From Flammeovirgaceae bacterium BBD 1991-12 (lineage in GTDB: Bacteria > Bacteroidota > Bacteroidia > Cytophagales > Cyclobacteriaceae), in NCBI GenBank assembly GCA_001657315.1, contig LYSV01000107.1, positions 886 through 64,885 of the forward strand: a stretch of 64,000 nucleotides of DNA. The letters run 5' to 3'. Below, piece by piece: positions 19,162 through 37,583 of this stretch (the stretch's first letter is position 1; the number at the start of each line of letters is the position of its first letter). A program made the translations under genes and the position numbers. The notes below the pieces were generated by a model. It made no database searches, was not told where the DNA came from, and saw only the letters and a list, made by a program, of their open reading frames with translations.

Positions 19162-19192
19162 TGCTATACAACAAGATTCAAATAATTTCTGA

Positions 19193-21234: not shown

Positions 21235-23097
21235 CTACTTTGCAAGGTTTAGCAGGTCTTTCATACGTCCCTCACTGTCGTACATTTTAAATTCAAGACG
21301 GTCACCGGACACCGTGATCGTAAAATAATGATGTCCGCGATAGGTCTTGGCGCTGAACCAGGCTCTCGAAGGAGCAAAATCTTCGAGATTGCCTCCTCCT
21401 CCACCTCCCTGAACATAGATCACACCATTTTTTTCATTCACCATATTATCCAGGATAGGCAGTGTACGCTGGTAGGTATGCAAATGGCCAAAAAATACTA
21501 TATCCACACCATATTTTTCATACAGAGGTACAATTCTTCTGACCTGTGGGTCACCCAGCGTTGATGCTCCCTTCCATGAGTCACCGTAATCGTCTTCATC
21601 TGCTGAATAGGGAGCATGATGGTGGGCCACAAACTTCCATTTGGCCGTTGAATTTCTGAGTTTTTCCTCTAGCCATACATATTGCTTTCCACCCGGGGCA
21701 AATTCTTCTTTCAGGTTGCTGTTGAGCATGAAGAATTCAGCATTGCCATAACGGAAAGAATAATATCCTTCATCCTCCGGTAGTTCATGGTACCTTTTGT
21801 ACCAGTAGAGGTCCTGCTCACCGTTGCCTGCCACCGGAAAAACAGGTATGCGGCTGGTTAGTTGGTTCATACCGTGAAAATACTCATAGTTCCATTCAAA
21901 CTTGTGATGCTCCATACCTCCATCCGTGAGATCTCCTACTATCATGATAAAATTCGGACGCTCGTCCCAGACCAGCCTGGAGATACGGTCATTGATATGA
22001 GGCCGAGCTTCAGTATCACCGATCACAGCAAAGGAAAAAGGCGTATTTTCATTCCCCGCTGTTGAAAAAGTCAGATCCCCGGATTCGATTACGTTGCCAT
22101 GGCTGTCCGTCGCTTTTATATTGTAAAAATACTGCTGTCCGGATTCCAGATCTCCCAGAGTGATCGCGTGAATATTCTTTGCCTGACCTGCCACGATTTC
22201 AGGGTCGGCGCTACCTACATCAATGACCACCTTCTCCTTCAAGGGCAACGTTTTTCCATAGTACACCTCTGCATAGGACGGCCTGTCTGTTTCCCAGATC
22301 ATATTGACTGAATGCTCAGTAACATAATTCAGGTAAGGACCCGCATTGAAGTGGAACATATCGGGAAACAGCCTTCCTTCCTCTACCATATGCTGCAGAC
22401 GTGACAAGCTCTCTTTTATCTCAGGCGTGGTCAGAGCACGATCATGGATACGCAGGCATTTCAGCAGATTACCCAGATCCATATAAGGTTCATTTTTCAT
22501 ATAGGCTGCCACCTCCAGCTCCATACCGGTCTGATCAAAAGGTTTGAGTTTTCCTGTCTTCATCGCCCCTACCTGCTCACCATTAAGGTACAAGGTGGCT
22601 TTTTCTCCATCGTAGGTCGCCACCAGATGCATCCAGTATTTTTTCCAGCCCCTTTTTTCAATGGTATGTGTGAGTAATTGCGCAAAAGGTGAAGTCTCCG
22701 TTCTTAAAGACAGGATAACCTCTCTTCCGTAAACACCCAGCAACCAGGCAGGTTCCGAGGGTGTATATTTACTTTTCAGCGCCGTTAGAGCACCAATGGG
22801 CTGATTGACATGATTGACCAGCCACATTTCTATGGTAAATGCATCGTGAGGAAGATCCGCAACAGTGGTAAAGTCGGTCATTCTGTGAGCAGGCTCTTCT
22901 CCATGAAAAACCAGTGGAAGAGTTTTCTGACCAACGGGCGGTGGAGAGACTTCAGGAGGTAAAATTCTTGGCCCCGGATAATTGCCCGCTTTACCCGGCA
23001 GTGTATAATCAGGCCAGAACCACCACTCCCCCTGCAGGGAAGATTGGGCCTGCATAGTAAGGGACGAAAACAAAAAGAGAGTCAACAAATATCTCAT
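21235..23097 (-). CDS. Secreted LamG + purple-acid-phosphatase-like metallophosphoesterase
   Basis: A 620-residue exported protein (signal peptide to about MQAQ, residue 18). A LamG/concanavalin-like domain (about 85-235) is followed by a PAP-type fibronectin-III domain (about 255-345, HSVNMIWETDRPSYAEVYYG) and a calcineurin-like phosphoesterase domain (about 350-570). Metal motifs GDTEA, GDLTDGG, AHHHAPYS and GHLHTYQRT are present. The usual GNHE/GNHD motif reads AGNGEQD, so the His that normally follows Asn is a Gly. It may be catalytically altered or a specialised phosphoesterase. It is the last gene of the SusCD-phosphoesterase operon and overlaps the preceding gene by 4 bp (ATGA). Confidence 0.87.
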   Translation of the reverse strand: MRYLLTLFLFSSLTMQAQSSLQGEWWFWPDYTLPGKAGNYPGPRILPPEVSPPPVGQKTLPLVFHGEEPAHRMTDFTTVADLPHDAFTIEMWLVNHVNQPIGALTALKSKYTPSEPAWLLGVYGREVILSLRTETSPFAQLLTHTIEKRGWKKYWMHLVATYDGEKATLYLNGEQVGAMKTGKLKPFDQTGMELEVAAYMKNEPYMDLGNLLKCLRIHDRALTTPEIKESLSRLQHMVEEGRLFPDMFHFNAGPYLNYVTEHSVNMIWETDRPSYAEVYYGKTLPLKEKVVIDVGSADPEIVAGQAKNIHAITLGDLESGQQYFYNIKATDSHGNVIESGDLTFSTAGNENTPFSFAVIGDTEARPHINDRISRLVWDERPNFIMIVGDLTDGGMEHHKFEWNYEYFHGMNQLTSRIPVFPVAGNGEQDLYWYKRYHELPEDEGYYSFRYGNAEFFMLNSNLKEEFAPGGKQYVWLEEKLRNSTAKWKFVAHHHAPYSADEDDYGDSWKGASTLGDPQVRRIVPLYEKYGVDIVFFGHLHTYQRTLPILDNMVNEKNGVIYVQGGGGGGNLEDFAPSRAWFSAKTYRGHHYFTITVSGDRLEFKMYDSEGRMKDLLNLAK

Positions 23098-24857
23098 ACT
23101 GGTTTTTTCCTTATAAATGAATCGATTACTTCACCTTTTCTGTTTTTGGCAACGAAACTGCAGGTACCACCCTCAATGGTGAAAAGCCCGTAGTGATGCT
23201 GATTCACCACTGTGTCCATTTCAGGGTAATCGGAATTCTCATCCGGCTCAAGACTTCCTCCGGCACCACCAACGATGAGCAGATCAGCCACATGGGCACC
23301 GGCCGATCTTGACCAGTGTTCATAATCATGCGTGTGTCCGCTCACCACAAAATCCACCAGACCGTTCTGTATCAACGGATCCATTACCGTCCTGATCTCC
23401 TCATCACCATGGTAGCCCGGCCAGCCCTGTGAGTAGGGAGGTTGATGGATAAAGACAAAACGCCATGTGGCCTCCCGCCATAGTTCTGAATCTATGGTAT
23501 TTGTCAGCCACCGGAATTGTTCAGGATCATTCTTTATACCAATGGGAAAACTCCGGTTGGGATCGAGGGCTATGAAGGCCGCATTTGCATGACGCCAGGA
23601 GAACCATGTGCGGGCGCTGTCCCTCCCCAAAAAACGATCATAGTTCGCACTGATCAGGTCATTATAGTAGCCATCATAATCATGATTGCCCGCTATAAGG
23701 TAGCAGGGTGTCTGCGCGCCATACGGATACATGGAATTCAGTAGCATATGCCACTCCCGGCGGTTACTCCCCTGACTCACCAGATCCCCTACCCCAACGG
23801 AAAAGCTTATATCCTCCTTATACATAACAGCGTTGACCTCCCGGAACACGGGCCAACCACCCTGGCTATCAGCCCAGACAGAAAATGAAAATGACACCTT
23901 TTGGGATGTGTTTAAAGTGATATCTTCGGTACAGGTAGTGTTTCCCAGGCAAACCCGGTAAGCGTCAGGCAAAGGCAAAGGCTCAGGCAAAGTAAAGCTG
24001 AAAGACCCCTTCTCTCCATCAACCACATACTCGGTACGGGTTCCATCAAAATTCAACGATATGATCGAGGGTATATCCCTGTCACTCTCCCACCTTATCT
24101 CCAGATCATCACCTTTGGCAATAAGGTAGGGTGGGACAAGGAAAGAGGGATAGACCGACAACAGTTCCTCTACTTCATAGAGATGACCCTCAATGCTTAC
24201 CGCCATCAAAACACGTTCGGCAAGTTCACTGGATAACTCAAGAGCCAGTACCTTTTCGATCAGCAACTGCAGCTGTAAAGTCTTTTGTTGTTCTTCTGAA
24301 AAAATGTGATACATTTCTTCATCCAGGAACCGAACATATCTCAGCCCTCCGCTCATGGCATTATTCAACACGCGGATCACCAGATCAACCGAATCCTGCT
24401 GTGCATCAATGAAAAAAAAGTCTTCATAACCTGCCTGGATCGGTTGTGAATTTACGAAAACCTGTGCGCCGTCATCAGCATTAACGTGTAGCCATGTTTT
24501 TGAATTGAACATTATCCTTTTCCTGTACCAAAGGGCTGTACTGGGTTTTAGGGTCCTGTGGGGCAAATACACTATGCTGTCCTCATCCCAGTGGGAAGGT
24601 ATTGTAAACCTGTGCAGTGTTTCATCGGATGATCCGGACCTAAAAAAGAATGTATCCACCGCAGTGCCTGGTGTATTGTACGGGGCGGCCTGTAACGAAT
24701 CCAGCACCTGCATTAATCTTTTATGAACCATAGTGGATGTCTTCTCAGACCCTACAGTGAGTGAGTGATAGGTCATAGATCGGTTCTCCTTCTCGTCAGC
24801 AACGGGCACACAGCTTATCAACGGTACAACCACGACCAGCAAGACAAGTCTTAACAT
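23094..24857 (-). CDS. Metallophosphoesterase lipoprotein (purple-acid-phosphatase-like)
   Basis: A 587-residue lipoprotein with the lipobox PLISC (Cys16). The N-terminal half is a beta-rich, unassigned region with a segment that looks carbohydrate- or ligand-binding (about 85-165), followed by a Fn3-like stretch. The C-terminal calcineurin-like domain (about 330-560) has a complete set of metal motifs: WADSQGG, GVGDLVSQG, AGNHDYDG, HQPPYSQGW and SGHTHDYEHW. It should hydrolyse phosphoesters in the periplasm or on the cell surface. It starts 7 bp after the alkaline-phosphatase-like gene and shares a 4-bp overlap with the next phosphoesterase. The substrate is not predictable from sequence alone. 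Confidence 0.87.
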   Translation of the reverse strand: MLRLVLLVVVVPLISCVPVADEKENRSMTYHSLTVGSEKTSTMVHKRLMQVLDSLQAAPYNTPGTAVDTFFFRSGSSDETLHRFTIPSHWDEDSIVYLPHRTLKPSTALWYRKRIMFNSKTWLHVNADDGAQVFVNSQPIQAGYEDFFFIDAQQDSVDLVIRVLNNAMSGGLRYVRFLDEEMYHIFSEEQQKTLQLQLLIEKVLALELSSELAERVLMAVSIEGHLYEVEELLSVYPSFLVPPYLIAKGDDLEIRWESDRDIPSIISLNFDGTRTEYVVDGEKGSFSFTLPEPLPLPDAYRVCLGNTTCTEDITLNTSQKVSFSFSVWADSQGGWPVFREVNAVMYKEDISFSVGVGDLVSQGSNRREWHMLLNSMYPYGAQTPCYLIAGNHDYDGYYNDLISANYDRFLGRDSARTWFSWRHANAAFIALDPNRSFPIGIKNDPEQFRWLTNTIDSELWREATWRFVFIHQPPYSQGWPGYHGDEEIRTVMDPLIQNGLVDFVVSGHTHDYEHWSRSAGAHVADLLIVGGAGGSLEPDENSDYPEMDTVVNQHHYGLFTIEGGTCSFVAKNRKGEVIDSFIRKKPV

Positions 24858-24864
24858 AAACAGA

Positions 24865-25950
24865 CTATTTGAACATTGAGCTCATTACCTCCCCGGCCTG
24901 CTTCTGTCCAGAATAATCCTCCCCAAGAAAAGCTGCAGCTGTTTTGGCCACCTGATTAAGGTAATACTGACCTGATTGCCGCACTTCTCCCATCGCGGGG
25001 GTATCAGGACCGATCACTGCCACCCAGATCTGGCCTGCGTTGTGTATGCTGGTACCATGGTGCTTCCAGGTCTCTTTGGGTTTAGTGCCTCTGCCATGGT
25101 CTGTAGTTATAATGAATGTGGTTTTTCCCTTGTACTGCTCTTCAGACTGGGCGAAATCCCACAGTTCCTGGATATATGCATCTGTTTGCCGGGCTGATCT
25201 CAGGTACTGATCGTATTCTCCGTCATGTGCAAAGTCGTCCGTTTCGCCATAGGCAATGTACAGCACCCTGGGTTTATTTTTTTTCAGGTCTTCCATGGCG
25301 TAGTGATGTGTAAACACATCAAGCCGCACACCTCCCCACGGACCCCGGATCTCATCCTGGATCTTGTTCAGGAACCTTTCCCGCTCAGTAAGATCTTTCT
25401 CTGCTTTTTCAAAACCGGCGTTGACCGGTATCCCGCTGCGCTCTTCATTGATGATGAACGGGAATACATCCCATGAGCCAAAAGCAGACACCTTGCCGGC
25501 ATATTCTTTCCGCTTGTTGAGGTATTCAAGTACTGTCACATTGGGATTCAGTTTTTTGTCGTTACTGTTGATCCTTTCATCATCAGCAAAGCCACATAGT
25601 ATCTCATTGTAGCCTGGATAAGAGAACCACATCTTATTGGTACAGTCTACCTTACTGTCATATTTGCGATTGCCGTGTAGCTGTCCCTGCCGGGCGATGG
25701 TATTCCAGAAAAACGGCATCAGTTTCTCCCTCCTCACCTTGTAGTCGCTGTGCCAGAATTCCCCAACCAGCTTCTCCGGTTCCTCAACATAACCAGAGTC
25801 ATCTACCAGCAGGGAATCTGCACCATAAAACAGCTCCTGCCACCGGAGGCCATCCAGTGTTATAATAAATATATTTTCCGTGCTGGCTCCCTTTTGAGCA
25901 AACAAAGAAGCCGGAAGAATCAGGAGAAGAATGAATAGTTTTTCTTTCAT
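24865..25950 (-). CDS. Alkaline-phosphatase-superfamily phosphodiesterase/phosphatase
   Basis: A 361-residue exported enzyme from the ATG at 25950, where MKEKLFILLLILPASLFAQ is a clean signal peptide; an upstream in-frame ATG at 26001 would bury it and is not preferred. Superfamily metal motifs are LDGLRWQ at the N-terminus, a Ser in WFSYPGYNEI as the probable nucleophile, ETDDFAHDG, TTDHGRG and a late His in WKHHG. The arrangement is closest to type I phosphodiesterase/nucleotide pyrophosphatase relatives (PF01663/PF00884). The start codon overlaps the stop of the preceding phosphoesterase by 4 bp, so it is part of the same operon. Confidence 0.85.
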   Translation of the reverse strand: MKEKLFILLLILPASLFAQKGASTENIFIITLDGLRWQELFYGADSLLVDDSGYVEEPEKLVGEFWHSDYKVRREKLMPFFWNTIARQGQLHGNRKYDSKVDCTNKMWFSYPGYNEILCGFADDERINSNDKKLNPNVTVLEYLNKRKEYAGKVSAFGSWDVFPFIINEERSGIPVNAGFEKAEKDLTERERFLNKIQDEIRGPWGGVRLDVFTHHYAMEDLKKNKPRVLYIAYGETDDFAHDGEYDQYLRSARQTDAYIQELWDFAQSEEQYKGKTTFIITTDHGRGTKPKETWKHHGTSIHNAGQIWVAVIGPDTPAMGEVRQSGQYYLNQVAKTAAAFLGEDYSGQKQAGEVMSSMFK

Positions 25951-26834
25951 GGGTTTTGGGTTTTTGATCGGGAACGGACCTTGCCGCACTCCCGTTTCCA
26001 TTTATATTGTATGTAATTATTGGTGAATGAGCCGTCATCAAAGAGTTCAATAACAGCGTATCCCGCCGGAGTCTCATGATAATATGGATCTCTCCACCAT
26101 TCACCGCACACTGAACCGTTGCTACAGTAATGAACGTCATTGTAGATGACCTCATCCCTCAAATGGGTATGCCCGCTTAGGCACAGCCTTACCTTTGGGT
26201 ACCTGTGGAAGAGCGCCACCAGTTTTCGTGCGTCTAGGTGAAGCCATGCCGGAGGCAATTTCCAGTAGCCTTCCTGTTCATTGTTACCATCAAACAGGAC
26301 AGCCGCGGAAAGTATGGGAATATGGCTCAGGATCAGAATGTAGCAACCGGACGGCGTGGATTGAACCGTACTCTCCAGCCATTCATATTGTGGCCCGGCA
26401 AGTTTTCCGATGTACCAGTCCCGGCAGGGCAGAATGCTGTCCAGCACGATGATCCGCCAGTTTTGTATATCATGATAGTAATAGGCGTTTTCCAGCTCCA
26501 GCTCATCCAGTGCCCATTCCTTGCCATAAAACAGCCGGGCCGTGGAGCCACCACCCCAGATATCATGATTCCCAAGGCAGTTGAGCATAGGTATATTGCA
26601 TTCGTGCAGACAGAATTCTCTCCATAGCTTCCAGCGTTCACAGGCCAGCTCTTTTGTGCTGCGTATCCCATCCATGATCACATCTCCGCCATTCAGGATC
26701 AGATCAATGTTTTGCTGCCAGGTGTAGAAATGCTCAAAGCACTGTGAAAGATCTTCCACGGAAAGCTCATCCTGCAGGTGGATGTCCGTCAAATGTATGA
26801 TACGTGATACCAGGCTGTGTTTTTGGCCATTCAT
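25947..26834 (-). CDS. Calcineurin-like metallophosphoesterase, no signal peptide
   Basis: A 295-residue protein from the ATG at 26834. An extension to 26855 would use TTG inside a strong hairpin, so it is rejected. There is no export signal, which suggests a cytoplasmic enzyme, unlike the other three phosphoesterases of the operon. All metal motifs are present: HLTDIHLQ, NGGDVIMDG, LGNHDIWGG, LSHIPIL and LSGHTHLRD. The compact CpdA-like architecture fits hydrolysis of a small phosphomono- or diester, perhaps one taken up by the SusCD system. It lies 44 bp after the SusD stop, with a hairpin in the gap. Confidence 0.87.
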   Translation of the reverse strand: MNGQKHSLVSRIIHLTDIHLQDELSVEDLSQCFEHFYTWQQNIDLILNGGDVIMDGIRSTKELACERWKLWREFCLHECNIPMLNCLGNHDIWGGGSTARLFYGKEWALDELELENAYYYHDIQNWRIIVLDSILPCRDWYIGKLAGPQYEWLESTVQSTPSGCYILILSHIPILSAAVLFDGNNEQEGYWKLPPAWLHLDARKLVALFHRYPKVRLCLSGHTHLRDEVIYNDVHYCSNGSVCGEWWRDPYYHETPAGYAVIELFDDGSFTNNYIQYKWKRECGKVRSRSKTQNP

Positions 26835-26842
26835 AATAATGG

Positions 26843-26868
26843 AACAGAGTGGCAAATGCCACTCTGTT
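26843..26868 (-). promoter_or_regulatory. Strong intra-operonic hairpin between susD and phosphoesterase genes
   Basis: A perfect 12-bp stem (26843-26854 AACAGAGTGGCA with 26857-26868 TGCCACTCTGTT) with a 2-nt loop, extendable by one G-U pair. In the leftward transcript it begins 10 nt after the SusD stop codon and ends 8 nt before the ATG at 26834. No U-run follows, so it is not a canonical terminator. It may instead act as an RNA processing or stabilising element or a partial attenuator that sets SusCD levels above those of the phosphoesterases. Confidence 0.65.
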
Positions 26869-26878
26869 TAAAGCCGAA

Positions 26879-28432
26879 CTAGTCTACATCCCACCATACC
26901 GGTGTAGTGATCTGATCAGGTCCCTGCACATTTATGGCAGCTTTATAATTTTCAGCGTTCAATGCCTGTACATCTGTAGGATACATAAATCTTACAGGTA
27001 CAGTAGGAATAAAGGCCGCTGGCCCCGGTGTGATCTCAGGATAACCCGTTCTTCTCCAGTCAAACCATGCTTCCATACCGTTGAAAAACAGGGCAAGCCA
27101 TTTCTGACGCCCGATCTTTTCCAGTTTCTCTTCCTCCGTGCCTGTATAGGCTATGTCTGTCTGGGTAAAATAATCCGCTTCAGGCTGGATCACCGCTGCG
27201 ATCTCACCGAAGTTGCCGGCCTGCAGGCGTGACTCGTAATAATCGAAAGAGGCTCTTATTCCGTTCAGATAGTAGGTCTCCGCATCTCCGGTGGTAATGA
27301 ATCCACGCTCTCTGGCTTCTGCCAGAATGAATTGTACCTCTGCATAGCTGATCAACATGGCCTGATATGCCACGGGCGACGCAAGACTGGTACAGGCGGA
27401 GCAGGAGAACATCAGCCCTACACGTGAAATAAAGTTGGAACCGCCCTTTGAAGGATCACCGCTGGGAGAATACTGGAGCGCCTCTTCGTCAGCGAGACCA
27501 TTCGGCACCCCCTGATAGGTATCCGGATCTCCCAAAACACCTGCATCAGAATCAGTGGTCGGCTGAGCATAAGCGTACAACCGGGGATCATTCAACGATT
27601 TAAGAATGCCTTCCATGTTTTCACTCAGCCGATACTCATCAAATGAGCCTGACCGTGTAGTATATAATGGATGTTGATTTGGCACTTCCGAAAGATATTG
27701 CAGTGCCGCATTATCATCATTACTCTGAATAATAGGGTTAGCGGTGCTGTTATCCAGAATTGCCTGCATGGCAGAGGAAGGATCGATCCTGTCAGACAGT
27801 CGCATGTGAATTCTCAGCCGCAGGGAATTGGCAAATTTCTTCCATTTCATGATGTCCCCATTGAACAGGATGTCTCCTTCCAGCGTCTCGGAGGAGGTAC
27901 CCAACAGTGTATTGGCGTCCTCCAGATCTTCAAGAATACCCTGATAGATGTTCTCCTGACGATCGAAAACCGGATAATTGATCCCTTCCCCGGCAGAAGT
28001 AGCTTCGCTGTACGGCACATCACCATAGGTGTCAGTCATAAAAGAGAACATCCACGATTTCATGATCTTTGCCAGTGCCACGTAGTTGTTCTGTCCTGAT
28101 TCTTCAGAGATCACAATGATGTTGTTCACATCTCTCAGTGCATTGTAAAAATCATTGTAGGGATTGCCTCGTGGCCCCCAGTTATACCGGTCTTCATTGG
28201 TAAACTGGATCTTGGCCGTATATTGCATAACTACATTGCCAAATCCCCAGGCCAAACCAGCTACTTCGTTTACTGAACTTCTGATCACCGTAGGAACCAG
28301 CAGATCGGCAGATACCTGTTCCGGACTGTTGGGGTTTTGATTTATCTCTTCAAAATCATCGTCGCACGAGGTCACAGTCAGCATCAAAACCATGATCAGT
28401 GCTCCTGTTATTTTAAATGTTTTCATTGTCAT
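26879..28432 (-). CDS. SusD-family nutrient-binding lipoprotein (phosphoesterase operon)
   Basis: A 517-residue SusD-like protein from the ATG at 28432; a further ATG at 28426 is equally possible. The in-frame extension to 28462 begins with TTG and overlaps the susC stop, so it is rejected. The lipobox TVTSC is followed by DDDFEEINQNPNSPEQV, the typical SusD-like_2 start. Further family marks are SFMTDTYGDVPYSEA, WKKFANSLRLRIHMRLS and the C-terminal GRQKWLALFFNGMEAWFDWRRTGYP, ending in WWDVD. It is the lid partner of the SusC encoded just upstream. Its operon neighbours are phosphoesterases, not glycosidases, so the ligand may be phosphorylated. Confidence 0.93.
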   Translation of the reverse strand: MTMKTFKITGALIMVLMLTVTSCDDDFEEINQNPNSPEQVSADLLVPTVIRSSVNEVAGLAWGFGNVVMQYTAKIQFTNEDRYNWGPRGNPYNDFYNALRDVNNIIVISEESGQNNYVALAKIMKSWMFSFMTDTYGDVPYSEATSAGEGINYPVFDRQENIYQGILEDLEDANTLLGTSSETLEGDILFNGDIMKWKKFANSLRLRIHMRLSDRIDPSSAMQAILDNSTANPIIQSNDDNAALQYLSEVPNQHPLYTTRSGSFDEYRLSENMEGILKSLNDPRLYAYAQPTTDSDAGVLGDPDTYQGVPNGLADEEALQYSPSGDPSKGGSNFISRVGLMFSCSACTSLASPVAYQAMLISYAEVQFILAEARERGFITTGDAETYYLNGIRASFDYYESRLQAGNFGEIAAVIQPEADYFTQTDIAYTGTEEEKLEKIGRQKWLALFFNGMEAWFDWRRTGYPEITPGPAAFIPTVPVRFMYPTDVQALNAENYKAAINVQGPDQITTPVWWDVD

Positions 28433-28458
28433 CTGTTTTAAAAGATTGGGTGAGTGGA

Positions 28459-31400
28459 TCAAAGCTTGAGATTCAGGTTAAAACCAACGCTCCTCAGCGA
28501 GGGGAAAGCCATATTCTCAATACCAGGCTGAAGGGTACCCCCGCTCATTGACAGAGTTTCAGGATCAAAATGCGGGTTCTCCGTCCAAAGCGCCAGATTT
28601 CTACCTACCACGGAGAACCTGACTTCTCTGAAGGGAAGCCTGGCAACAATGCCACCCGGAAGTGTATAGCTTATTCTCACCTCTCTCAATTTCACATAGG
28701 AGGCATCATATTTGGCTGCTTCTACATTGTTTCTCTCATAATACCGGTTATGCCAGTTTCTTGAGGTAATTTTAATATCATTCGGACGGTAGGTGCCATC
28801 TTCATTTTCAATCACTCCATCACTAATGACTCCGTTACCTTCAATGGAAAGGTCATAGCCATTTGCTCTTCCAAAAAGTGTTTCCTCCAGCTGACCGGAG
28901 GTACTGCCTATGGTTTTCGTTCTGGACACCACTATACCTCCCTGCCGGATGTCAAAAAGAAAACCAAGGGAAATGCCTTTGAAGCTGAGTGTATTCTGAA
29001 TACCCATCATCCAGTCAGGGTTGTAGTTCCCCTGGAACTCCAGTTCACTGCCTCTGAGTGGCGTACCTTCTGCTGTATGGATTATTTCACCGAAAAACTC
29101 ACTTTCAGGATCATCTACCCTGGCAAAACCGATGCCGTAGATATTGCCCATTCTTTCTCCTACCCTCGCCTGGATCACGGCGCCATTTCGTGAAGTAAGT
29201 GTATACGTATCCAGCCCTTCGGTGAGCTCCAGTACCTTGCTCCGGTTGCGGGTAAAATTGGCGGTTATATCCCATTGCAGGCCATTGTCCTGAAGGACAG
29301 GGGTACCCATAGCCATGATCTCCAGGCCATTGTTCTGGATCTCACCGGCATTGATTATCCTACTGGAATACCCTGTAGCAATATCCAGCTCAATAGGAAT
29401 GATCTGGTCGCGCGTACGGTTATCGAAGTAAGTGACATCTAGTCCCAGTCTGCCATTAAAAAGCCTGACATCCGCACCGATCTCATAGGAAGAGGTCCTT
29501 TCGGGTTTCAGGTTGGCGTTGGCCAGTGTTGAGGACTCTGTCTTGGCCTGAACGGAACCCCAGGCGGTCTGAGGGTTGAACACATTGGTGAGGCTGTAGG
29601 GATCCGTATCGTTACCTACTTCAGCATAGGCGCCTCTCACCTTCACGAAAGACAGGGCCTCCGGCAGCTCGACCATATCGCTGATAATGGCACTTAGCGT
29701 TACCGAGGGATAAAAATAACTGTTATTGTCGATCGGCAGGGTGCTGGACCAGTCGTTCCTTCCGGTGACATCAAGGAATATCATATTCTTGTAGGCTACC
29801 TGACCAAAGCCATACAGCGAGTTGATCCTCTTTTCCAGGTTTGCTTCCGTGATCTGAAGCGCAACCGCTGAGTTGGTAAAGTTGTAGATATTGGGGATGA
29901 GCAGTTGCGGAGCCACGGTACGGGTAAAGTCGTTCTGCTGTCGCATATGGTTCCCACCCGCAGATATGGAAAATGACCAGTTCTCATTGAGGGCTTTATT
30001 GTAGCTCAGCAAAAAGTCTGAGTTCCTTTCACTGAAAAATATATCGTCCTCTCTGTAGTTGCCCTGTGGGAACCGTTGTGTGCTGAAGGCCCTTCTTCTG
30101 TCCCGTAGCTCGTTATAAAAATCCGTACCCGTTCTGAGCATCAGGCTCAGCTCATCGGTAAAGTTGTAGGTAACTGAGATATTGCCCAGTATCCGGTCCT
30201 TATCCTGTCCGTTTGTATTTTCATATACGTTGAAATAAGGGTTATCATGATAATTGTAGTTGTAATTGAACTGCTGCCGTCCCTCAAGGCCGGGCATCCA
30301 GTAATCTCTGAGGTTGCCGGTATTGATCTGCCTGCCATACCAGATCCAGAGATACATGAGGTTCTCAGTACCATAGCTGATATTCGGTCGGTTGCCACTG
30401 CTGGTCTGGATATAATTGACGGAAGCATTTACACTTAAATTATCCGTCACGTTCATGCCGGCTTTCAGGGCTATGGTATTTCTTTCCAGATCAGTATTGG
30501 GCACGGTACCCTGCTGGTCCAGATTGGTCCAGGAAAGTCGTATGTTTGACCTCTCTCCACCTGCTGTGATCTCCACATTGTTCGACCAGGTAACACCGGT
30601 TTCAAAAAAGTCATTGATATTATCAGGCTGCGAAACCCAGGGTGTGGGAACAATGGTACTCCCTTCAGGGGCGTTCAGGTCGCCTCCACGAAATCCATTT
30701 ACATCCCTTGGAGAATCAAACTGAGGGATCAGCAGGCCCTGATCCATTCGGGGACCCCAGCTTTCATCTACTCCATCAGCAATGCCCGAGCCTGCACCGT
30801 CAACAAATTCGAACTGACCATTGTTGCCCTGACCGTATACGTCCTGCCAGTCCGGCAATACCAGTGGCCGGTCAAACGTAACATTGGAGTTAATGCTGAT
30901 CCCCAGGCCCTTTTTTCCGCTTCCGGATCTGGTAGTAATGAGGATCGCTCCATTCGCAGCACGGGAGCCGTAAAGTGCCGCAGCCGCGGGTCCTTTCAGA
31001 ATACTCATCGAAGCGATATCATCCGGATTGATCTCACCGGCAGCATTTCCATAGTCCACCTCCTGATTACCACTGCCTGATGATCCCACTACCTGATTAC
31101 TAATAGGAATACCATCCACAATGAACAAGGGCTGGTTCGCATTGATATTGAGAGACGACTCTCCACGGATCGTAACGCGTGAAGAACCTCCAATAGCACT
31201 GGTACCGTTCGTCACCTGAACCCCTGCCGCCCGGCCACTCAGGGAGTTAATGACGTTCACCTCACGGGCCTCCGTGAATTCATCGCCATCTACCTCCTGC
31301 ACTGAATATCCCAGCTCCTTGGTCTCTCTTTCCACACCAAGAGCGGTAACAACCACCTCAGAAAGTTCCACAGTGGAAGAAAACATGGCAACGTCAAGAG

Positions 31401-31713
31401 CAGAGCGTGAACCTACCCTGACTTCCTGATTTTCATAGCCCACAAATGAGAATACCAGAATGGCATCTTCATTATTTATGAGTTGTAATTTGAAATTGCC
31501 TTCAAAGTCCGTAACGGCACCGTTGGTTGTCCCTTTTTCAAGTATGTTCACACCAGGGATACCTGTACCATCCGTCTGATCCGTGACTTTTCCGCTGACC
31601 GTCTGGCCCTGGGCCAATGCCTGAGACAGCGAAAAATAAAGCGCCATAAGCAGGAACGTGCCAGGTAGCTTTTTACCCAGACGCCCTGTCCTTTCAGGTA
31701 AATAATTTTTCAT
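28459..31713 (-). CDS. SusC-family TonB-linked outer-membrane protein (phosphoesterase operon)
   Basis: A 1084-residue SusC-type barrel. The long basic N-terminus and signal peptide end at about ALAQGQ. The CarboxypepD_reg-like domain (TVSGKVTDQTDGTGIPGVNI to SFVGYENQEV) is followed by the SusC signature VVVTALGVERETKELGYSVQEV and the plug VINSLSGRAAGVQVTNG and PLFIVDGIPIS. The barrel ends in SVGFNLNLKL. It is first in a leftward operon with SusD and four phosphoesterases. A GC-rich hairpin lies in its leader, and the gene is divergent from a HTH-cupin regulator, the obvious candidate controller. Confidence 0.94.
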   Translation of the reverse strand: MKNYLPERTGRLGKKLPGTFLLMALYFSLSQALAQGQTVSGKVTDQTDGTGIPGVNILEKGTTNGAVTDFEGNFKLQLINNEDAILVFSFVGYENQEVRVGSRSALDVAMFSSTVELSEVVVTALGVERETKELGYSVQEVDGDEFTEAREVNVINSLSGRAAGVQVTNGTSAIGGSSRVTIRGESSLNINANQPLFIVDGIPISNQVVGSSGSGNQEVDYGNAAGEINPDDIASMSILKGPAAAALYGSRAANGAILITTRSGSGKKGLGISINSNVTFDRPLVLPDWQDVYGQGNNGQFEFVDGAGSGIADGVDESWGPRMDQGLLIPQFDSPRDVNGFRGGDLNAPEGSTIVPTPWVSQPDNINDFFETGVTWSNNVEITAGGERSNIRLSWTNLDQQGTVPNTDLERNTIALKAGMNVTDNLSVNASVNYIQTSSGNRPNISYGTENLMYLWIWYGRQINTGNLRDYWMPGLEGRQQFNYNYNYHDNPYFNVYENTNGQDKDRILGNISVTYNFTDELSLMLRTGTDFYNELRDRRRAFSTQRFPQGNYREDDIFFSERNSDFLLSYNKALNENWSFSISAGGNHMRQQNDFTRTVAPQLLIPNIYNFTNSAVALQITEANLEKRINSLYGFGQVAYKNMIFLDVTGRNDWSSTLPIDNNSYFYPSVTLSAIISDMVELPEALSFVKVRGAYAEVGNDTDPYSLTNVFNPQTAWGSVQAKTESSTLANANLKPERTSSYEIGADVRLFNGRLGLDVTYFDNRTRDQIIPIELDIATGYSSRIINAGEIQNNGLEIMAMGTPVLQDNGLQWDITANFTRNRSKVLELTEGLDTYTLTSRNGAVIQARVGERMGNIYGIGFARVDDPESEFFGEIIHTAEGTPLRGSELEFQGNYNPDWMMGIQNTLSFKGISLGFLFDIRQGGIVVSRTKTIGSTSGQLEETLFGRANGYDLSIEGNGVISDGVIENEDGTYRPNDIKITSRNWHNRYYERNNVEAAKYDASYVKLREVRISYTLPGGIVARLPFREVRFSVVGRNLALWTENPHFDPETLSMSGGTLQPGIENMAFPSLRSVGFNLNLKL

Positions 31714-31763
31714 AGTTTTGATTGTTTTGGGTTGTGAAATTTTGTCAATGCAATCCGTAAACA

Positions 31764-32062: not shown

Positions 32063-32638
32063 ATGAAGGATGAAATCATCTCCACCATTGCCAGAAAACT
32101 GAAAACAGAACGCCAGAAACAAGGGCTTACCATCAATGACGTAAGTAAACGTTCAGGTTTAAGTAAAGGCCTGATATCCAAGATCGAGAACTCACGGACC
32201 ATCCCATCCATGCCGGTCTTTTTTTCAATACTCAAGTCCATGTCCCTATCTCCATCTTCCTTTTTTGATGACATAGACTATCGCAATGATGAGAGCTTTC
32301 ATGTGGTGAGGCCGGCTGAGCATCAACCTATTGAAAAGGAAAATCGTCCCGGCTTTCAGTATCACTACATTATGAACCAGCAAATCCATGATGTGAACAT
32401 GGAGGTGGTACTTCTGGAACTGGAACCCGGGGTCAGAGGAATAGCCACCTCTACCGACGGCTTTGAACTAAAATACCTGCTAAAAGGAAAGGTAAACTAC
32501 AGAATAGATGACAAGAACATCATACTGGAGCCAGGAGATGTTATTTTCTTTGATGCATCCTGTCCTCACAGGCCGGAAAATCTGTCGTCACAAAACGCTT
32601 TAATGCTGGTGTTTTATTTTATGAACGCAAGGTTATGA
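32063..32638 (+). CDS. XRE-family transcriptional regulator with C-terminal cupin domain
   Basis: A 191-residue regulator. The N-terminal helix-turn-helix (about 8-65) reads LKTERQKQGLTINDVSKRSGLSKGLISKIENSRTIP when its segments are joined, a classic HTH_3 fold. The C-terminal cupin_2 domain (about 110-185) includes LLELEPGVRG, YLLKGKVNYRID and EPGDVIFFDASCPHRPEN, which suggests small-ligand sensing. Such HTH-cupin proteins often control catabolic genes by sensing a substrate or intermediate. It is divergent from the SusCD-phosphoesterase operon and opens the phosphonate cluster, so it could coordinate both. Confidence 0.9.
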   Translation: MKDEIISTIARKLKTERQKQGLTINDVSKRSGLSKGLISKIENSRTIPSMPVFFSILKSMSLSPSSFFDDIDYRNDESFHVVRPAEHQPIEKENRPGFQYHYIMNQQIHDVNMEVVLLELEPGVRGIATSTDGFELKYLLKGKVNYRIDDKNIILEPGDVIFFDASCPHRPENLSSQNALMLVFYFMNARL

Positions 32639-32687: not shown

Positions 32688-33839
32688 TCAGATGGCTATC
32701 CCTGAAGAAACGATATGTTCATCAAACACTTCTTTTGCCAGACCAAAGGAAAGGGTCATACCTGCTCCGCCAAGTGCATTGACAATGAGCACATCTGGCT
32801 CCGGCTCTGCCACTATCTCTGTTTTGCCAGGTGCTTTTGCATAAATACCATGCCATTGTTCGGCAATTTCAAGATCATCGATCACTGTAAAAGTGCTGAG
32901 GTATTCAAGGACCAACCGGTTGATCCTTTCGGAATCAAAGGGTGAGAGCTCCCGCCCGTAGTGGTGCGAATCCCCTATGATCAATTCCTGGTCTTCATTC
33001 TGTGACAGCAGAACATGAATGCCGTTTTCTGCAAACCCGGGGTTCGTTTTATCGTATCTATCGGACAGAGCTGCCAGAGAGGGGCAGTCACTAAAGGCAT
33101 CATAGTGACGCAGGGTGAGGCCTGCACACAGAGTGGGACCCGCCAATTGCTTCACACCGGAGCTCTTCATCATCTGCAGTTTGCATTTGGTAATATTGAT
33201 GGAGTTGTAATAATCAGGATACAGGCTTTCGAAATCAGCTCCGCCGCATACAATGGTTTTGCTGACCTGCCAGCGATCTCCATTGCTGCAATGCACCCAT
33301 GGCATGCTTATTTCCTTTACCGTGTGGCCATAATGGATCACTACACCCATTTTTTCCCGCAAATAGTCGTGAATTTTTTGAATAGCCTGGCGTGCATATA
33401 CTGTACATTCTGTCTGGCTGTACAAACCTGCCCGCATACCCTCTATCCGGACTAATGGGCTGTAGGAGACTACCTCAGACGGTTTTAGAAGTTTCACCTC
33501 ATACTCTTTATTTCCATCCAGCTCCATAAACTCCTGCAGCACTGCCTGCTCATCTGCATGATACGCCAGATGCAGGGAACCATTTTCCTTCATCCAAAAT
33601 CCGGCGGCTGCGGACAGCTCCTGCCAAACGGACCTGCTCCGCAGAGCACGGTCCAGCATCTTTCCAGGCTTCTGCCCTACAGGCCATACGAGACCAAAAT
33701 TCCTGACAGAAGCCCCAATGGCCTGAAAATTGCGCTCGAACAGTACAACACGAAAACCTCTCAGCGCAGCCTCCCGGGCATGTGCCAGCCCGACTATCCC
33801 ACCTCCCACAATAGCAATATCTGCCGACTTATCTTTCAT
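32688..33839 (-). CDS. TIGR03364-type FAD-dependent oxidoreductase (aminophosphonate-associated)
   Basis: A 383-residue flavoprotein of the DAO family. The N-terminal Rossmann motif is AIVGGGIVGLAHAREAALRG, followed by an acidic strand end at VVLFERN. The segment SVRNFGLVWPVGQ and the C-terminal NALGGAGMTLSFGLAKEV fit the TIGR03364 family, known for synteny with phosphonatase-like hydrolases and proposed to deaminate an aminophosphonate oxidatively. Here a phosphonatase-like HAD gene and a PhnZ-like gene lie within 5 kb, which supports that role. It has no signal peptide and should act in the cytoplasm. It is convergent with the HTH-cupin gene (49-bp gap) and divergent from the PHP gene. Confidence 0.82.
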   Translation of the reverse strand: MKDKSADIAIVGGGIVGLAHAREAALRGFRVVLFERNFQAIGASVRNFGLVWPVGQKPGKMLDRALRSRSVWQELSAAAGFWMKENGSLHLAYHADEQAVLQEFMELDGNKEYEVKLLKPSEVVSYSPLVRIEGMRAGLYSQTECTVYARQAIQKIHDYLREKMGVVIHYGHTVKEISMPWVHCSNGDRWQVSKTIVCGGADFESLYPDYYNSINITKCKLQMMKSSGVKQLAGPTLCAGLTLRHYDAFSDCPSLAALSDRYDKTNPGFAENGIHVLLSQNEDQELIIGDSHHYGRELSPFDSERINRLVLEYLSTFTVIDDLEIAEQWHGIYAKAPGKTEIVAEPEPDVLIVNALGGAGMTLSFGLAKEVFDEHIVSSGIAI

Positions 33840-34069: not shown

Positions 34070-34969
34070 ATGGCATGGACCAATTTTCACGGACATTGCA
34101 AATACTGCGACGGGGTTCTTGACCCGGACGACTACATCAGGAAAGCCATTGAAAAAGGGTTTTACGGCTACGGTTTTTCATCACATGGCCCCGTAGACCA
34201 TCATAGCAGGTGGAACATCAAAAAGGAGCACATTAACACCTATCTGCAGGATATTGACCGGTTAAGTAAGGTATACGAAGGGGATATTGAGATTTACAAG
34301 GGCTTTGAGGCAGACTACATACCGGACTATATGACTCCGGAAGAACTAAAAAAGGCCTGCCATCTCGACTATGTTATAGGTTCAATACACTATATGGGTT
34401 TCCTTCATGATGGTACCCCCTGGGAAATGGACGGCAGTACTGCTTTTTTCGAACAGGGACTGGAAGAGATATTTGCCGGCGATTTTAAACAATTTGTTAA
34501 AAGGTATTTTTCCCTGGTCAGGGAAATGGTGGAAACCGGAAAGCCCGATATTGTCGGTCATCTGGACAAATTCAAGATCCATAACTCAGAGAACAGGTAT
34601 TTCCAACAGACTGATGAATGGTATCAGGCCGAGGTAATGGAGGCGCTGGAATGCATCAAAAAGAATAAAACCATCCTTGAGGTAAACACCCGGGGCATTT
34701 ACAAAAAGAAGACGGAGGAGACCTATCCCAGTCCATGGATACTGAAGCAGGCCCATCAAATGAATATCCCAGTTATGTTGAACTCAGATGCTCATCATCC
34801 AGATGATATAGACAAGTATTTTGGGCCTGCAGCACAAATGCTGGAGGATACAGGCTTCCGCACTCTACGCATATTGCTGGGCGGCAAGTGGTGCGATGTA
34901 CCTTTTGATCATACAGGATTAAAGCCAGACCAAAGCGATGCGCGAAAAAGTGCAAAACTGGCTTCATAA
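34070..34969 (+). CDS. PHP-domain phosphoesterase (histidinol-phosphatase-like)
   Basis: A 299-residue cytoplasmic PHP-fold protein. Metal-binding signatures include the N-terminal NFHGHCKYCDG (His7, His9), the SSHGPVDHH segment, DYVIGSIHY, VGHLDKFK and LNSDAHHPDDI. Together these match the HisK-type histidinol-phosphatase branch. No his biosynthesis genes are nearby; the neighbours are phosphonate genes, so a role as a phosphomonoesterase in that pathway or with its transporter is plausible. It overlaps the DUF5690 gene by 32 bp, indicating a coupled operon. The TATCTTAG sequence just 8 nt before the ATG could mark a very short leader, but this is weak. Confidence 0.82.
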   Translation: MAWTNFHGHCKYCDGVLDPDDYIRKAIEKGFYGYGFSSHGPVDHHSRWNIKKEHINTYLQDIDRLSKVYEGDIEIYKGFEADYIPDYMTPEELKKACHLDYVIGSIHYMGFLHDGTPWEMDGSTAFFEQGLEEIFAGDFKQFVKRYFSLVREMVETGKPDIVGHLDKFKIHNSENRYFQQTDEWYQAEVMEALECIKKNKTILEVNTRGIYKKKTEETYPSPWILKQAHQMNIPVMLNSDAHHPDDIDKYFGPAAQMLEDTGFRTLRILLGGKWCDVPFDHTGLKPDQSDARKSAKLAS

Positions 34970-36261
34970 ACAAAATCAGGCCGTCTTCTCGCTTTACGCG
35001 ATAGTGGCCTCTTTTTGCACCTACTCCTGTATGTATGCGTTTCGCAAGCCCTTTGCCGTTGCCACATTTGATGATCTCCAGTACTGGAATATCGACTACA
35101 AGATATTATTGATCACGGCTCAGGTAGCCGGGTACACGCTGTCCAAGTTTTTAGGGGTAAAACTCATATCGGAGATGGAGAATGCAAAAAGGGCTTTCTA
35201 CATCATCACCCTGGTCGGTATAGCCGGGCTGGCCCTTCTGCTGTTTGCCATTATACCCGCACCTTACAATATAGTTTGCCTTTTTCTCAACGGCTTGCCT
35301 CTGGGGATGATATGGGGACTGGTCTTTTCCTATCTGGAAGGACGGAAAGTGACTGAGATCCTGGGAGCAGGCTTATCCGTTAGTTTCATCTTTTCTTCCG
35401 GTTTTGTGAAATCCGTGGGGAAACTTGTGATGATCCAATGGGGATTTTCTGAATACTGGATGCCACTGGTTACCGGTCTGCTTTTTATGGTACCTCTCAT
35501 TCTCTTTGTCTTCATGCTTGATCTTCTTCCCAATCCTACTGCTGAAGATATCCGGTCCCGGACAAAGGGAGCCCATGGATGGAAAGGAAAGAGTAAGGTT
35601 TTTCATGGCATTTGCTCCAGGTTTGGTATTGCTCATCATCACTTATATGATGCTCACGATTTTCAGGGACTTCAGAGACAACTTTGCTGCGGAGATATGG
35701 ATCAGTCTGGGATACGGAGATTCTCCGGAGATATTCACCATTACCGAGATCCCGGTTGCATTGGGAGTGTTGATCATCATAGGCAGTCTCATGACCATCA
35801 GGCAGAATAAAACGGCATTATTTGTCAATCATTTGTTGATCTTACTGGGCATGCTTCTGATAGGGCTGAGCACATGGTTGTTTGAGCAGACGGTAATATC
35901 CGCTCCATTATGGATGATCCTCACAGGATTTGGGCTGTACATGGGCTACGTGCCTTTCAACAGTGTATTGTTTGACCGTCTGATCGCATCTTTCCATGTT
36001 GTGAGCAACGCAGGTTTTTTGATCTACCTTGCAGACTCTTTCGGATACCTGGGCAGCGTGGGCATACTGTTTTACAAGGAATTTGGTGAACCAGACCTGA
36101 ACTGGCTCGACTTTTTCAAGTCAATGGGTTATTTTCTTACCATAACCGGCAGTTGTTTGATATGCCTTTCAATGCTCTATTTCTATAAAAGGGGAAGGGT
36201 CGTCACTTCCGGGCCGCTGCCTCAAATTCAGCAGGAGCCTGATCTCGATTATATTGGATGA
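34938..36261 (+). pseudogene. DUF5690 family transporter-like membrane protein, interrupted by a frameshift
   Basis: Two overlapping frames together form one multi-helix membrane protein of about 440 residues resembling MFS transporters. Frame 1 (34938 on) carries the N-terminal helices from MREKVQNWLHKQNQAVFSL through PNPTAEDIRSRTK. Frame 2 continues with EPMDGKERVRFFMAFAPG and TIFRDFRDNFAAEIW to the end at 36261. The switch occurs at 35566-35572, where removing one G from AAAGGGA restores a smooth RTK-EPMDGKER join. The start overlaps the PHP gene by 32 bp. It is the only candidate inner-membrane transporter of the phosphonate cluster. The break may be a real mutation or a homopolymer assembly error. 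Confidence 0.8.
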
Positions 36262-36802
36262 TCAACCTGATCAGTGCAGCAGGACTGTTCAGATCTGCTC
36301 CTGTCTTACGCACTCCGGCCATGAGCAGTGAGGGATCAAGAGAGGGAAGGACTTTTCGCCGGAACTGTCTGAGGGTATACCACTTACCCTCTGCCCGTAC
36401 AAAATAGTGATAGGCATTGGCTTCCTCCGACAAACTTATCAGCCGGTTAGGCTCATAATCCGTTTTATCATGATATGCACCCCGGTAGGTTTTCAGGTTT
36501 CTTAAAACCTGCAGCTCACCGTCTGCCACAATCTCAAAAAACCGTTGCCGGCGGAGTCCTTTTTTGACAGATTCTGCTATGGTAAACTTTCTGTTGATAT
36601 TTTTCTCCCGATCATAATACCGAAATGATCTTATGCGATGCGCTGGGTACAACCTTGATCCTTTTCCCTCTCTGACAATCAGGGCATCATACCGCCATTC
36701 CATTTTAAACTCGCACTGAAGCACCTCATTATCCCTTGTGACGATCACTCCCTGATGCCACTCACTAAAACCGATCAAATGAAAAAGAAGCCACGCCAAC
36801 AT
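36203..36802 (-). CDS. Conserved hypothetical exported protein
   Basis: A 199-residue protein with a hydrophobic N-terminus (MLAWLLFHLIGF) that may be a signal peptide. The body begins with an EVLQCEFKMEWRYDALIVRE strand-rich stretch and a HRIRSFRYYDREKNINRKF segment, a pattern I associate with exported Bacteroidota proteins of unknown function. No catalytic motif is visible. Its 3' end overlaps the DUF5690 gene tail-to-tail by 59 bp. It lies 97 bp downstream of the phosphonatase-like gene on the same strand and could be co-transcribed with it. Function unknown. Confidence 0.65.
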   Translation of the reverse strand: MLAWLLFHLIGFSEWHQGVIVTRDNEVLQCEFKMEWRYDALIVREGKGSRLYPAHRIRSFRYYDREKNINRKFTIAESVKKGLRRQRFFEIVADGELQVLRNLKTYRGAYHDKTDYEPNRLISLSEEANAYHYFVRAEGKWYTLRQFRRKVLPSLDPSLLMAGVRKTGADLNSPAALIRLIIQYNRDQAPAEFEAAARK

Positions 36803-36899: not shown

Positions 36900-37583
36900 T
36901 TAGTTTAACCCTATGATTGGAAGAAGCTCGTACAGATCATCTATAAGATGTGTATGATACCCGGAGGCCAGTACACTGCGGTCATAGGCTCCGGTGGTGA
37001 CACCAACTACAAAGGCACATCCTGCATTCCTGCCCTGATCCATATCAGATTTGGTATCGCCTACCTTGGCCACATTGCTGGCACTGTTGATTCCGGAGTT
37101 TTCCATAGCCCTGAAGATCATATCCGGGTGAGGTCGTCCATGGTCCACCTCATCGCTGGTCACGCTGGTATCTATCAGTTCCATCCAGCCCAGTCGCTTG
37201 ATGATGGTGTCGGCTGTTTTTCTATCAAAACCCGTATCCAGCGCCACTTTTACCTTATTTTTTCTAAGCTCTTCAAAAACACCGGAAGCGCCTTCCTTTT
37301 CCTTCACATCTTCACTTTCCAAATAAAATTCAACCATAGCCTCAACAAACGTGTGGTGCATTTCATTGATCACCTCTTCATTTTCAAACCTGCCATCATT
37401 ATGCCACTGCAACAGTTGTTTAATGGCTACCGGCTTGGGTATGCCCATTACCCTGTTGGCCTCGTCCAATGAGATCATCACATCATAACGTGACATAGTA
37501 TTCTGCAGGACTTTGTGAACAAATCTATCGTCGTAAACCGTAGTACCGGCCATATCAAAAACTACAAGCTCTATAGGTTCCAT
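36900..37583 (-). CDS. Phosphonatase-like HAD hydrolase (TIGR03351 type)
   Basis: A 227-residue cytoplasmic HAD-superfamily enzyme. Motif I reads VFDMAGTTV: the usual second Asp of HAD enzymes is Ala12, which is the hallmark of the phosphonatase (PhnX) branch. Asp10 is the nucleophile. The cap carries VMGIPK, whose Lys50 sits where PhnX has its Schiff-base Lys. Further motifs are ALDTGFDRKTAD, GRPHPDMIF (Arg in place of the usual HAD Lys) and VGDTKSDMDQG. PhnX cleaves phosphonoacetaldehyde to acetaldehyde and phosphate; TIGR03351 members are thought to act on that or a close 2-oxoethylphosphonate. It is divergent from the PhnZ-like gene. Confidence 0.87.
   Translation of the reverse strand: MEPIELVVFDMAGTTVYDDRFVHKVLQNTMSRYDVMISLDEANRVMGIPKPVAIKQLLQWHNDGRFENEEVINEMHHTFVEAMVEFYLESEDVKEKEGASGVFEELRKNKVKVALDTGFDRKTADTIIKRLGWMELIDTSVTSDEVDHGRPHPDMIFRAMENSGINSASNVAKVGDTKSDMDQGRNAGCAFVVGVTTGAYDRSVLASGYHTHLIDDLYELLPIIGLN

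Follow-up and report, generated by a model that had tools for sequence, protein, structure and literature searches.

The 64,000-nucleotide stretch of Flammeovirgaceae bacterium BBD 1991-12 analyzed here (contig LYSV01000107.1, positions 886–64,885; hereafter the window) carries an operon at 21235–31713 for a SusC/SusD-type outer-membrane importer and four phosphoesterases, and a divergent flank at 32063–38311 encoding relatives of aminophosphonate-degrading enzymes. From gene content and recurrence, we consider it probable that the operon and flank form one aminophosphonate-utilization locus, with a SusCD pair predicted to import aminoethyl-phosphonate or aminoethyl-phosphate compounds. The initial annotation had proposed that this SusCD pair imports a phosphorylated compound or a product of phosphoester hydrolysis, as a phosphorus-directed counterpart of a polysaccharide utilization locus (PUL). 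Part of that proposal stands, as both phosphoesterases and phosphonate genes are encoded in homologous loci; it was incomplete in that the phosphonate genes of the flank were missed, and the concept had already been published in 2020. With phosphonate genes adjoining the operon, the probable substrate can be specified beyond a phosphorylated compound, as an aminophosphonate or an aminoethyl-phospho conjugate.

The layout of the operon agreed with its first description in reading frames, order, strand and gaps. Reading downstream on the minus strand, the genes encode SusC, SusD, a calcineurin-type metallophosphoesterase (MPEc), an alkaline-phosphatase-superfamily enzyme (APs) and two exported metallophosphoesterases (PAP1, purple-acid-phosphatase-like, and PAP2). 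SusD and MPEc are separated by 44 bp, MPEc and APs overlap by 4 bp, APs and PAP1 are 7 bp apart, and PAP1 and PAP2 overlap by 4 bp; localization of the operon proteins was judged by eye from their N termini. The claim that no glycosidase is present also held for the operon in a Pfam scan, the GH20 gene lying outside it in convergent orientation. Because this gene set recurs in many genera, it is not a chance arrangement.

The flank supplies the catabolic genes. At E 1e-30, the organism's own genome gave one match each to TIGR03364 (PbfD family), TIGR03351 (PhnX-like) and TIGR03276 (PhnZ-like), all of them in this locus. The PhnX-like protein matched the phosphonatase structure 2iof with an E value of 1.6e-19, and in an alignment to 2iof and 2ioh an Asp and a Lys, which we take to be the nucleophile and the Schiff base former, respectively, were kept in 82 of 85 copies, with gaps in the other three. 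Homologs of the conserved protein encoded beside it also adjoin PhnX-like genes elsewhere, for example in loci L161 and L127 and in Fulvivirga kasyanovii (125 bits). PhnW was absent above its cut-off from the own genome, where the only match was partial (45 bits; cut-off 400.8), and this fits the PbfD-PhnX route without PhnW described in the available portions of PMC10590968. According to the same portions, tested PbfD enzymes convert N-methyl-2-aminoethylphosphonate and 2-aminoethylphosphonate (AEP) to phosphonoacetaldehyde, PbfD1 is annotated in TIGR03364, and pbfD genes other than pbfD1 most often accompany phnX alone (PMC10590968). The XRE-cupin regulator encoded divergently from susC suggests substrate induction beside, or in place of, a response to phosphate stress.

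Table 1. Features of the predicted aminophosphonate locus and the neighboring GH20 gene (window coordinates; bits, bit score)
Feature	Position	Strand	Evidence
SusC-type TonB-dependent outer-membrane transporter	28459..31713	-	TIGR04056 637.9 bits (cut-off 368); TIGR04057 signature
SusD-type surface lipoprotein	26879..28432 (start 28426 or 28432)	-	PF12771 342 bits
RNA hairpin, 11 pairs, between susD and MPEc gene	26843..26868	-	-19 kcal/mol, z -4.94, 0/200 shuffles as low
MPEc, calcineurin-type metallophosphoesterase, no evident signal sequence (by eye)	25947..26834	-	PF00149 51.6 bits
APs, exported alkaline-phosphatase-superfamily enzyme, PafA/NPP-like	24865..25950	-	PF01676/PF01663
PAP1, exported lipoprotein metallophosphoesterase, purple-acid-phosphatase-like	23094..24857	-	PF00149 54.7 bits; lipobox LISC by eye
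PAP2, exported LamG + metallophosphoesterase	21235..23097	-	PF00149 68.6 bits, PF13385 44.9 bits
XRE helix-turn-helix + cupin regulator, divergent from susC	32063..32638	+	PF01381, PF07883; PuuR model 52.3 bits, far below cut-off 211
FAD oxidoreductase, PbfD family	32688..33839	-	TIGR03364 427.1 bits, above cut-off 285.1
PHP-domain phosphatase, HisJ family	34070..34969	+	TIGR01856 144.8 bits, cut-off 90.2
DUF5690 membrane protein, MFS-like by eye	34938..36261	+	PF18943 positions 1-173 and 173-382 in two frames
Conserved protein beside PhnX-like	36203..36802	-	no Pfam/NCBIfam match
PhnX-like HAD hydrolase (phosphonoacetaldehyde hydrolase-like)	36900..37583	-	TIGR03351 207.9 bits, cut-off 218.9
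PhnZ-like HD-domain oxygenase	37748..38311	+	TIGR03276 205.3 bits, cut-off 214.6; PDB PhnZ 4mlm E 1.3e-37
GH20	16374-19004	convergent to operon	Pfam; next to NagB-like gene and symporter, second SusCD further off

We searched 196 genomes of the window's family at E 1e-30 and found APs in 63, TIGR03364 in 47, TIGR03351 in 56 and TIGR03276 in 37. Where two of these occurred in the same genome, they usually lay within 20 kb of each other: APs and PbfD in 23/31 genomes, APs and PhnX-like in 28/35, APs and PhnZ-like in 20/26, and PbfD and PhnX-like in 42/45. Gene order was read in 100 fetched stretches with the window proteins as phmmer queries; gene labels in loci L031–L240 are phmmer matches over bit thresholds that we chose ourselves, not curated cut-offs. 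SusD was found within 15 kb in 33 of 46 PbfD contigs (46 of the 47 matches, as the PbfD of G003 lies just outside its fetched stretch). A phosphonate gene was present in the fetched stretch in 23/29 APs contigs with SusD at 6 kb or less versus 6/34 without (Fisher p 1e-6, kinship ignored). Six SusD-bearing contigs lacked a phosphonate gene, but in two of them, G003 and G015, such genes lie immediately beyond the fetched stretch. Of the six contigs with a phosphonate gene and no nearby SusD, three (G012, G091 and G134) are whole chromosomes with the two genes more than 190 kb apart; because of these five contigs, the comparison is slightly unfavorable to a link between SusD and phosphonate genes. 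Near-complete syntenic copies of the window locus, without MPEc, were found in L038/L127 and L193. Locus L127 keeps the order PhnZ-like, PhnX-like, 36203..36802-type protein, DUF5690, PHP, PbfD, XRE, SusC, SusD, APs, PAP1, and L038, which represents the same place, continues with PAP2.

The neighborhood survey of SusD homologs that the initial annotation had suggested as a check supported its phosphorus-directed reading. Genome contigs were scanned with a SusD alignment and the best 80 loci were kept; phosphonate genes were present in 39 of these named loci, 36 of them with two or more. They occurred in 16/30 loci at 60% SusD identity or above, 11/20 at 48–59% and 12/30 below 48%, and a recognized phosphoesterase in 29/30, 11/20 and 7/30 of the same classes, respectively. 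Within the 39 phosphonate loci we counted PbfD in 36, PhnX-like in 33, DUF5690 in 36, PhnZ-like in 28, APs in 27 and XRE in 22. Such loci span at least six Bacteroidota families and include Fulvivirga (Fulvivirgaceae), Algoriphagus (Cyclobacteriaceae), Fibrisoma (Spirosomataceae), Terrimonas (Chitinophagaceae), Mangrovimonas (Flavobacteriaceae) and Parapedobacter (Sphingobacteriaceae), among others. The closest named SusD (72%) is that of Fulvivirga kasyanovii, whose contig carries PhnX-like, the 36203..36802-type protein, DUF5690, PHP, PbfD, XRE, SusC, SusD and APs.

Other open reading frames (ORFs) of the homologous loci extend both enzyme sets. Curated models recognized PbfA (NF049939, 603.7 bits; cut-off 525), PhnW (TIGR02326, 571.9; cut-off 400.8) and the phosphonoacetaldehyde dehydrogenase PhnY (TIGR03250, 655.5; cut-off 635.65), together with a phosphocholine-specific phospholipase C (PLC; TIGR03396, 771.5; cut-off 580.25); Ca-dependent phosphatidylinositol-specific phospholipase C (PI-PLC), PhoX, PhoA-type and nucleotide pyrophosphatase/phosphodiesterase (NPP)-type enzymes were also present. 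No glycoside hydrolase was found among 25 listed of 42 Pfam families in 57 of 63 cluster ORFs, the other 17 families being single-member and the six dropped ORFs all coming from G091 (two near the stretch end, four elsewhere on the same chromosome). Likewise, there was no glycosidase among 25 listed of 36 families in 23 hand-picked ORFs from six loci without phosphonate genes. Within this scope, the conserved glycosidases by which the initial annotation said its proposal would be refuted did not appear.

In 13 of the 80 SusD loci, genes of the gamma-glutamyl-ethanolamine pathway were present instead, and none of the 13 has phosphonate genes. Six are from Cyclobacterium, three from Lunatimonas, two from Arenibacter and two from uncultured organisms. 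The set consists of an ethanolamine permease, a GlnA-like ligase, an iron alcohol dehydrogenase, an aldehyde dehydrogenase and a glutamine-amidotransferase-type hydrolase; all five genes occur in six loci, four in L195/L196 and three in L171, L173, L174, L184 and L199. The curated-model scan covered one of the 13, L167, in which the permease exceeded its cut-off (TIGR00908, 439.6 bits; cut-off 381.75), the ligase and two dehydrogenases stayed under equivalog cut-offs, matching broad families, and for the amidotransferase-type protein, which was named by eye, there was no match at E 1e-30. PLC is encoded in 9/13 ethanolamine-type loci, and its presence may point to lipids as the source of the substrate. 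XRE and DUF5690, found in 22/39 and 36/39 phosphonate loci, were both absent from all 13. Elsewhere in its own genome, the window organism has an ethanolamine permease above the cut-off (G000:C163:21786-23105).

A SusD tree placed the window in a supported set of 52 rows: 35 phosphonate-type (P), 13 ethanolamine-type (E), two of neither type (O) and two from loci under 20 kb. Four pairs of identical proteins, each under two locus names, are among these rows; without them the counts are P 31, E 13, O 2 and short 2. The window's smaller set of 34 includes a supported group made up of ten E proteins, and the other three E rows fall within a flavobacterial group that adjoins P rows. On this tree, the catabolic back end must change three times, in whichever direction, with at least two of the changes on supported branches. 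The tree is of a quick type, with Shimodaira–Hasegawa-like approximate likelihood ratio test (SH-aLRT) support only, and long outgroup branches from the own genome may be misplaced; one SusD alignment comprised the window protein and 32 of the 80 SusD references. Because aminoethylphosphonate is the C–P analog of phosphoethanolamine, the ligand shared by both locus types would most simply be an aminoethyl-phospho(no) headgroup.

We propose the following scheme for the window locus. SusCD would capture a compound with an aminoethyl-phosphonate headgroup, or its phosphate analog, and import it through the outer membrane; the ligand is probably a phosphonate ester from a lipid or glycan, too big to pass porins. 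The periplasmic PafA-like enzyme APs and the two exported metallophosphoesterases may cut the ester to release inorganic phosphate (Pi), free aminophosphonate or both, and DUF5690 would then move the aminophosphonate through the inner membrane. PbfD would convert AEP or its N-methyl form to phosphonoacetaldehyde, which the PhnX-like enzyme would split into acetaldehyde and Pi. The PhnZ-like enzyme may act on 1-hydroxy-aminoethylphosphonate, presumably yielding glycine and Pi. The XRE-cupin protein might sense a pathway compound and control both gene directions, and the locus as a whole would yield phosphorus, nitrogen and carbon.

Several observations weigh against this scheme. The PhnX-like and PhnZ-like proteins score just below their curated cut-offs, the DUF5690 gene has a frame break near 35565 as assembled, and the phosphonate genes lie on mixed strands outside the susCD operon, so co-regulation with susCD is our inference. 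No SusD was seen in the fetched stretch for 13/46 PbfD contigs, and 34 of the 63 APs contigs lack one at 6 kb or less; APs therefore also serves elsewhere, and we rejected it as a marker of the system. In the SusD survey, 41/80 loci had no phosphonate gene: 13 ethanolamine-type, 14 shorter than 20 kb, in which genes may be missing through truncation, and 14 full loci that fit neither type. Twelve of the latter 14, with SusD identity below 49%, have no recognized phosphoesterase; they include Dyadobacter, Chitinophaga and others at 45–48% identity. Because of these 14 full loci, the phosphonate/ethanolamine link belongs to clades and not to SusD-like_2 overall. The two surveys also overlap, as several named loci carry SusDs identical to those of family genomes.

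Alternative explanations were considered. The locus could serve general organophosphate scavenging, as a phosphate utilization system (PUS) in the sense of Lidbury et al., importing varied phosphodiesters and phosphomonoesters, with the phosphonate genes mere neighbors in a phosphorus island. The phosphoesterase set of homologous loci is indeed broad and changing (PLC, PI-PLC, PhoX, PhoA-like, NPP), two full Algoriphagus loci carry phosphoesterases only, and the published PUSI pairs SusCD with a PI-PLC and a metallophosphoesterase, in the available part of that account (PMC8115612). We nevertheless regard this explanation as unlikely, since phosphonate or ethanolamine catabolism is encoded at nearly every locus of the window's clade by the tree counts given above, and since the two sets of genes were never found together, a pattern that a mere phosphorus island does not predict.

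An importer for phosphono- or phospho-substituted glycans, with phosphoesterases that strip the substituents from oligosaccharides, would be in keeping with SusCD ancestry, with the LamG domain on PAP2 and with the nearest SusD folds, several of which bind glycans (6dmf, 5j5u). The absence of glycosidases among the listed families (25/42 from 57 ORFs; 25/36 from 23 ORFs) and the presence of phospholipase C genes in their place make this highly improbable, and a plain PUL was rejected because neither the operon nor the families listed for homologous loci include a glycoside hydrolase or lyase. The notion of a nucleotide or nucleic-acid scavenging locus, in which the NPP-like and PAP-like enzymes act on nucleotides, draws on the resemblance of the APs model to NPP enzymes; we give it hardly any credence, as no nucleosidase, nuclease or nucleoside carrier was recognized among the families listed for homologous loci and the phosphonate and ethanolamine genes would be left unexplained.

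Aminophosphonate utilization, our preferred explanation, has a wider form that we put forward tentatively and with slightly less than even confidence. A Bacteroidota-wide SusCD clade may have left glycans to recognize the zwitterionic aminoethyl-phospho(no) headgroup, keeping the importer while C–P cleavage and gamma-glutamyl-ethanolamine pathways were exchanged behind it; it would then be a receptor family for phosphonolipids and phosphoethanolamine lipids, with DUF5690 as a new carrier. To our knowledge, no outer-membrane receptor family for such lipids has been described. Phosphonates and phospholipid headgroups are sizeable pools of organic phosphorus, and a SusCD pair of this type is easily annotated as a glycan importer. 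If the proposal is true, aminophosphonate or ethanolamine-phosphate use could be read from the presence of one SusD clade, substrates of many "orphan" SusCD pairs would be open to direct tests, and DUF5690 would gain its first functional lead.

DUF5690 is a candidate inner-membrane aminophosphonate carrier on the strength of its distribution. It was found in 56/59 family genomes with a phosphonate gene versus 12/137 others (196 genomes), and 57 of 78 DUF5690 loci have a phosphonate gene at a distance of 10 kb or less. It was not named in any paper found in the open-license literature. The DUF5690 gene of G098 is also split, and the break in the window may reflect either an assembly error or real loss.

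The SusD protein belongs chiefly to PF12771, with a match to PF14322 of 30 bits only (cut-off 27). Its structural model (mean predicted local distance difference test [pLDDT] 79.3, some loops below 50) is too weak for reading the ligand pocket; the top PDB matches in Foldseek were SusD homologs (3ejn, E 9e-24), and the glycan binders mentioned above are among the nearest folds. The hairpin between susD and the MPEc gene could, at a guess, uncouple importer from enzyme levels, perhaps keeping the importer higher.

Metal-site motifs are readable in all four operon phosphoesterases. For APs, the start in the ORF list (26001) is too far upstream and 25950 was taken. Its model (pLDDT 90.6) aligned best by VIA-align with PafA (5tj3/5too; Z 28.3, 296 aligned residues, root-mean-square deviation 3.1), followed by SPAP (27.0), a sulfatase module (25.1) and NPP enzymes (approximately 24.8); phosphonate monoester hydrolases scored 23.8 and 23.3. 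By Foldseek E value, arylsulfatases, LtaP and YejM-type chains rank first, and because the two methods differ in this way the fold alone leaves the reaction unfixed. APs shares the fold and metal-site pattern of PafA (5tj3), SPAP and NPP at 12–18% identity; by motif, its likely nucleophile is a serine. Sulfatase-family structures reach similar scores, and the likeness to PafA is a fold match only. Residues D33, S110, D238, H242, D284, H285 and H298, which we take to have catalytic or metal-binding roles, were invariant in 31 aligned rows (the window and 30 of 35 APs references). PAP1 matched 1xzw (E 4.7e-8) and keeps GNHD and GHxHD in 40/40 aligned copies. PAP2 matched 6git (E 8.4e-13) and has GNG(E/D) in place of the GNHD of the other operon enzymes in at least 23 of 26 aligned copies; as metallophosphoesterases usually have GNH(E/D), it represents a subfamily with an unusual active site. 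A PDB sequence search with MPEc gave no match at E 1. MPEc was found near phosphonate genes in only three other loci (L084, L098 and L190) and is therefore optional.

Two further regions of the window were noted. On the opposite strand, positions 5967–21097 hold a second SusCD (SusC2 by eye) together with genes for a NagB-like/PIG-L protein, a GH20 enzyme and a sodium symporter, and look like a separate N-acetylglucosamine or chitin-type locus. A histidine-utilization (hut) gene set, recognized by eye from translations, occupies 47468–53394.

Systems of this kind are already known. In Flavobacterium, the name PusCD was given to SusCD pairs that are induced by Pi depletion and have phosphatases and phosphonate-degrading enzymes encoded next to them (Lidbury et al., 2020; PMC8115612). 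In the available portions of that paper, a PUS has a SusCD-like pair by periplasmic phosphomonoesterases and phosphodiesterases, PUSI with a PI-PLC and a metallophosphoesterase. The operon at 21235–31713 is likewise built, its SusCD-like pair being co-located with phosphoesterases and not with carbohydrate-active enzymes. PusD1/2, the proteins to which this comparison applies, are listed there as PF07980/PF14322 with extracytoplasmic function (ECF)-sigma/FecR genes, whereas the window SusD is chiefly PF12771 and accompanied by an XRE-cupin regulator. No ECF-sigma or FecR was found among the scanned proteins of 21235–38311, a trait of the PUSI/PUSII examples rather than of the definition in that text. 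Unlike PUS, the window's SusD clade is tied to aminophosphonate or ethanolamine catabolism. Beyond the PusCD work, we found no account in the open-license literature of outer-membrane uptake of phosphonates or phospholipid headgroups in Bacteroidota. We also found none linking SusD with aminophosphonates, phosphonolipids or phosphoethanolamine in open-license titles and abstract starts; for SusC with phosphoethanolamine, off-topic matches dominated the results and the negative carries little weight.

The AEP clusters PbfD-PhnX, PhnWX and PhnWYA share the TIGR03364 oxidoreductase and a phosphonatase-like hydrolase with the window, and PhnW, PbfA and PhnY with other loci; the available portions of those papers describe them with general transporter and regulator genes, to which the window adds SusCD, several exported phosphoesterases and DUF5690 (PMC10590968, PMC12366243). 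The gamma-glutamyl-ethanolamine pathway, which serves phospholipid headgroup catabolism, is made by Phaeobacter on phosphoethanolamine (PMC10132767) and is represented in Streptomyces by GlnA4 (PMC6529630). As far as the available text of these two papers goes, its genes (permease, GlnA-like ligase, dehydrogenases and amidohydrolase) match the sister SusCD loci of Cyclobacterium and others. Its substrate enters there by way of a tripartite ATP-independent periplasmic (TRAP) carrier or an ethanolamine permease, that text naming no SusCD, and the pathway is absent from the window locus. Compared with PusCD, what is new here is the PF12771-type SusD clade, its occurrence in several families, its linkage to PbfD, PhnX-like and PhnZ-like enzymes, the exchange for ethanolamine catabolism, the XRE-cupin regulator and the link to DUF5690.

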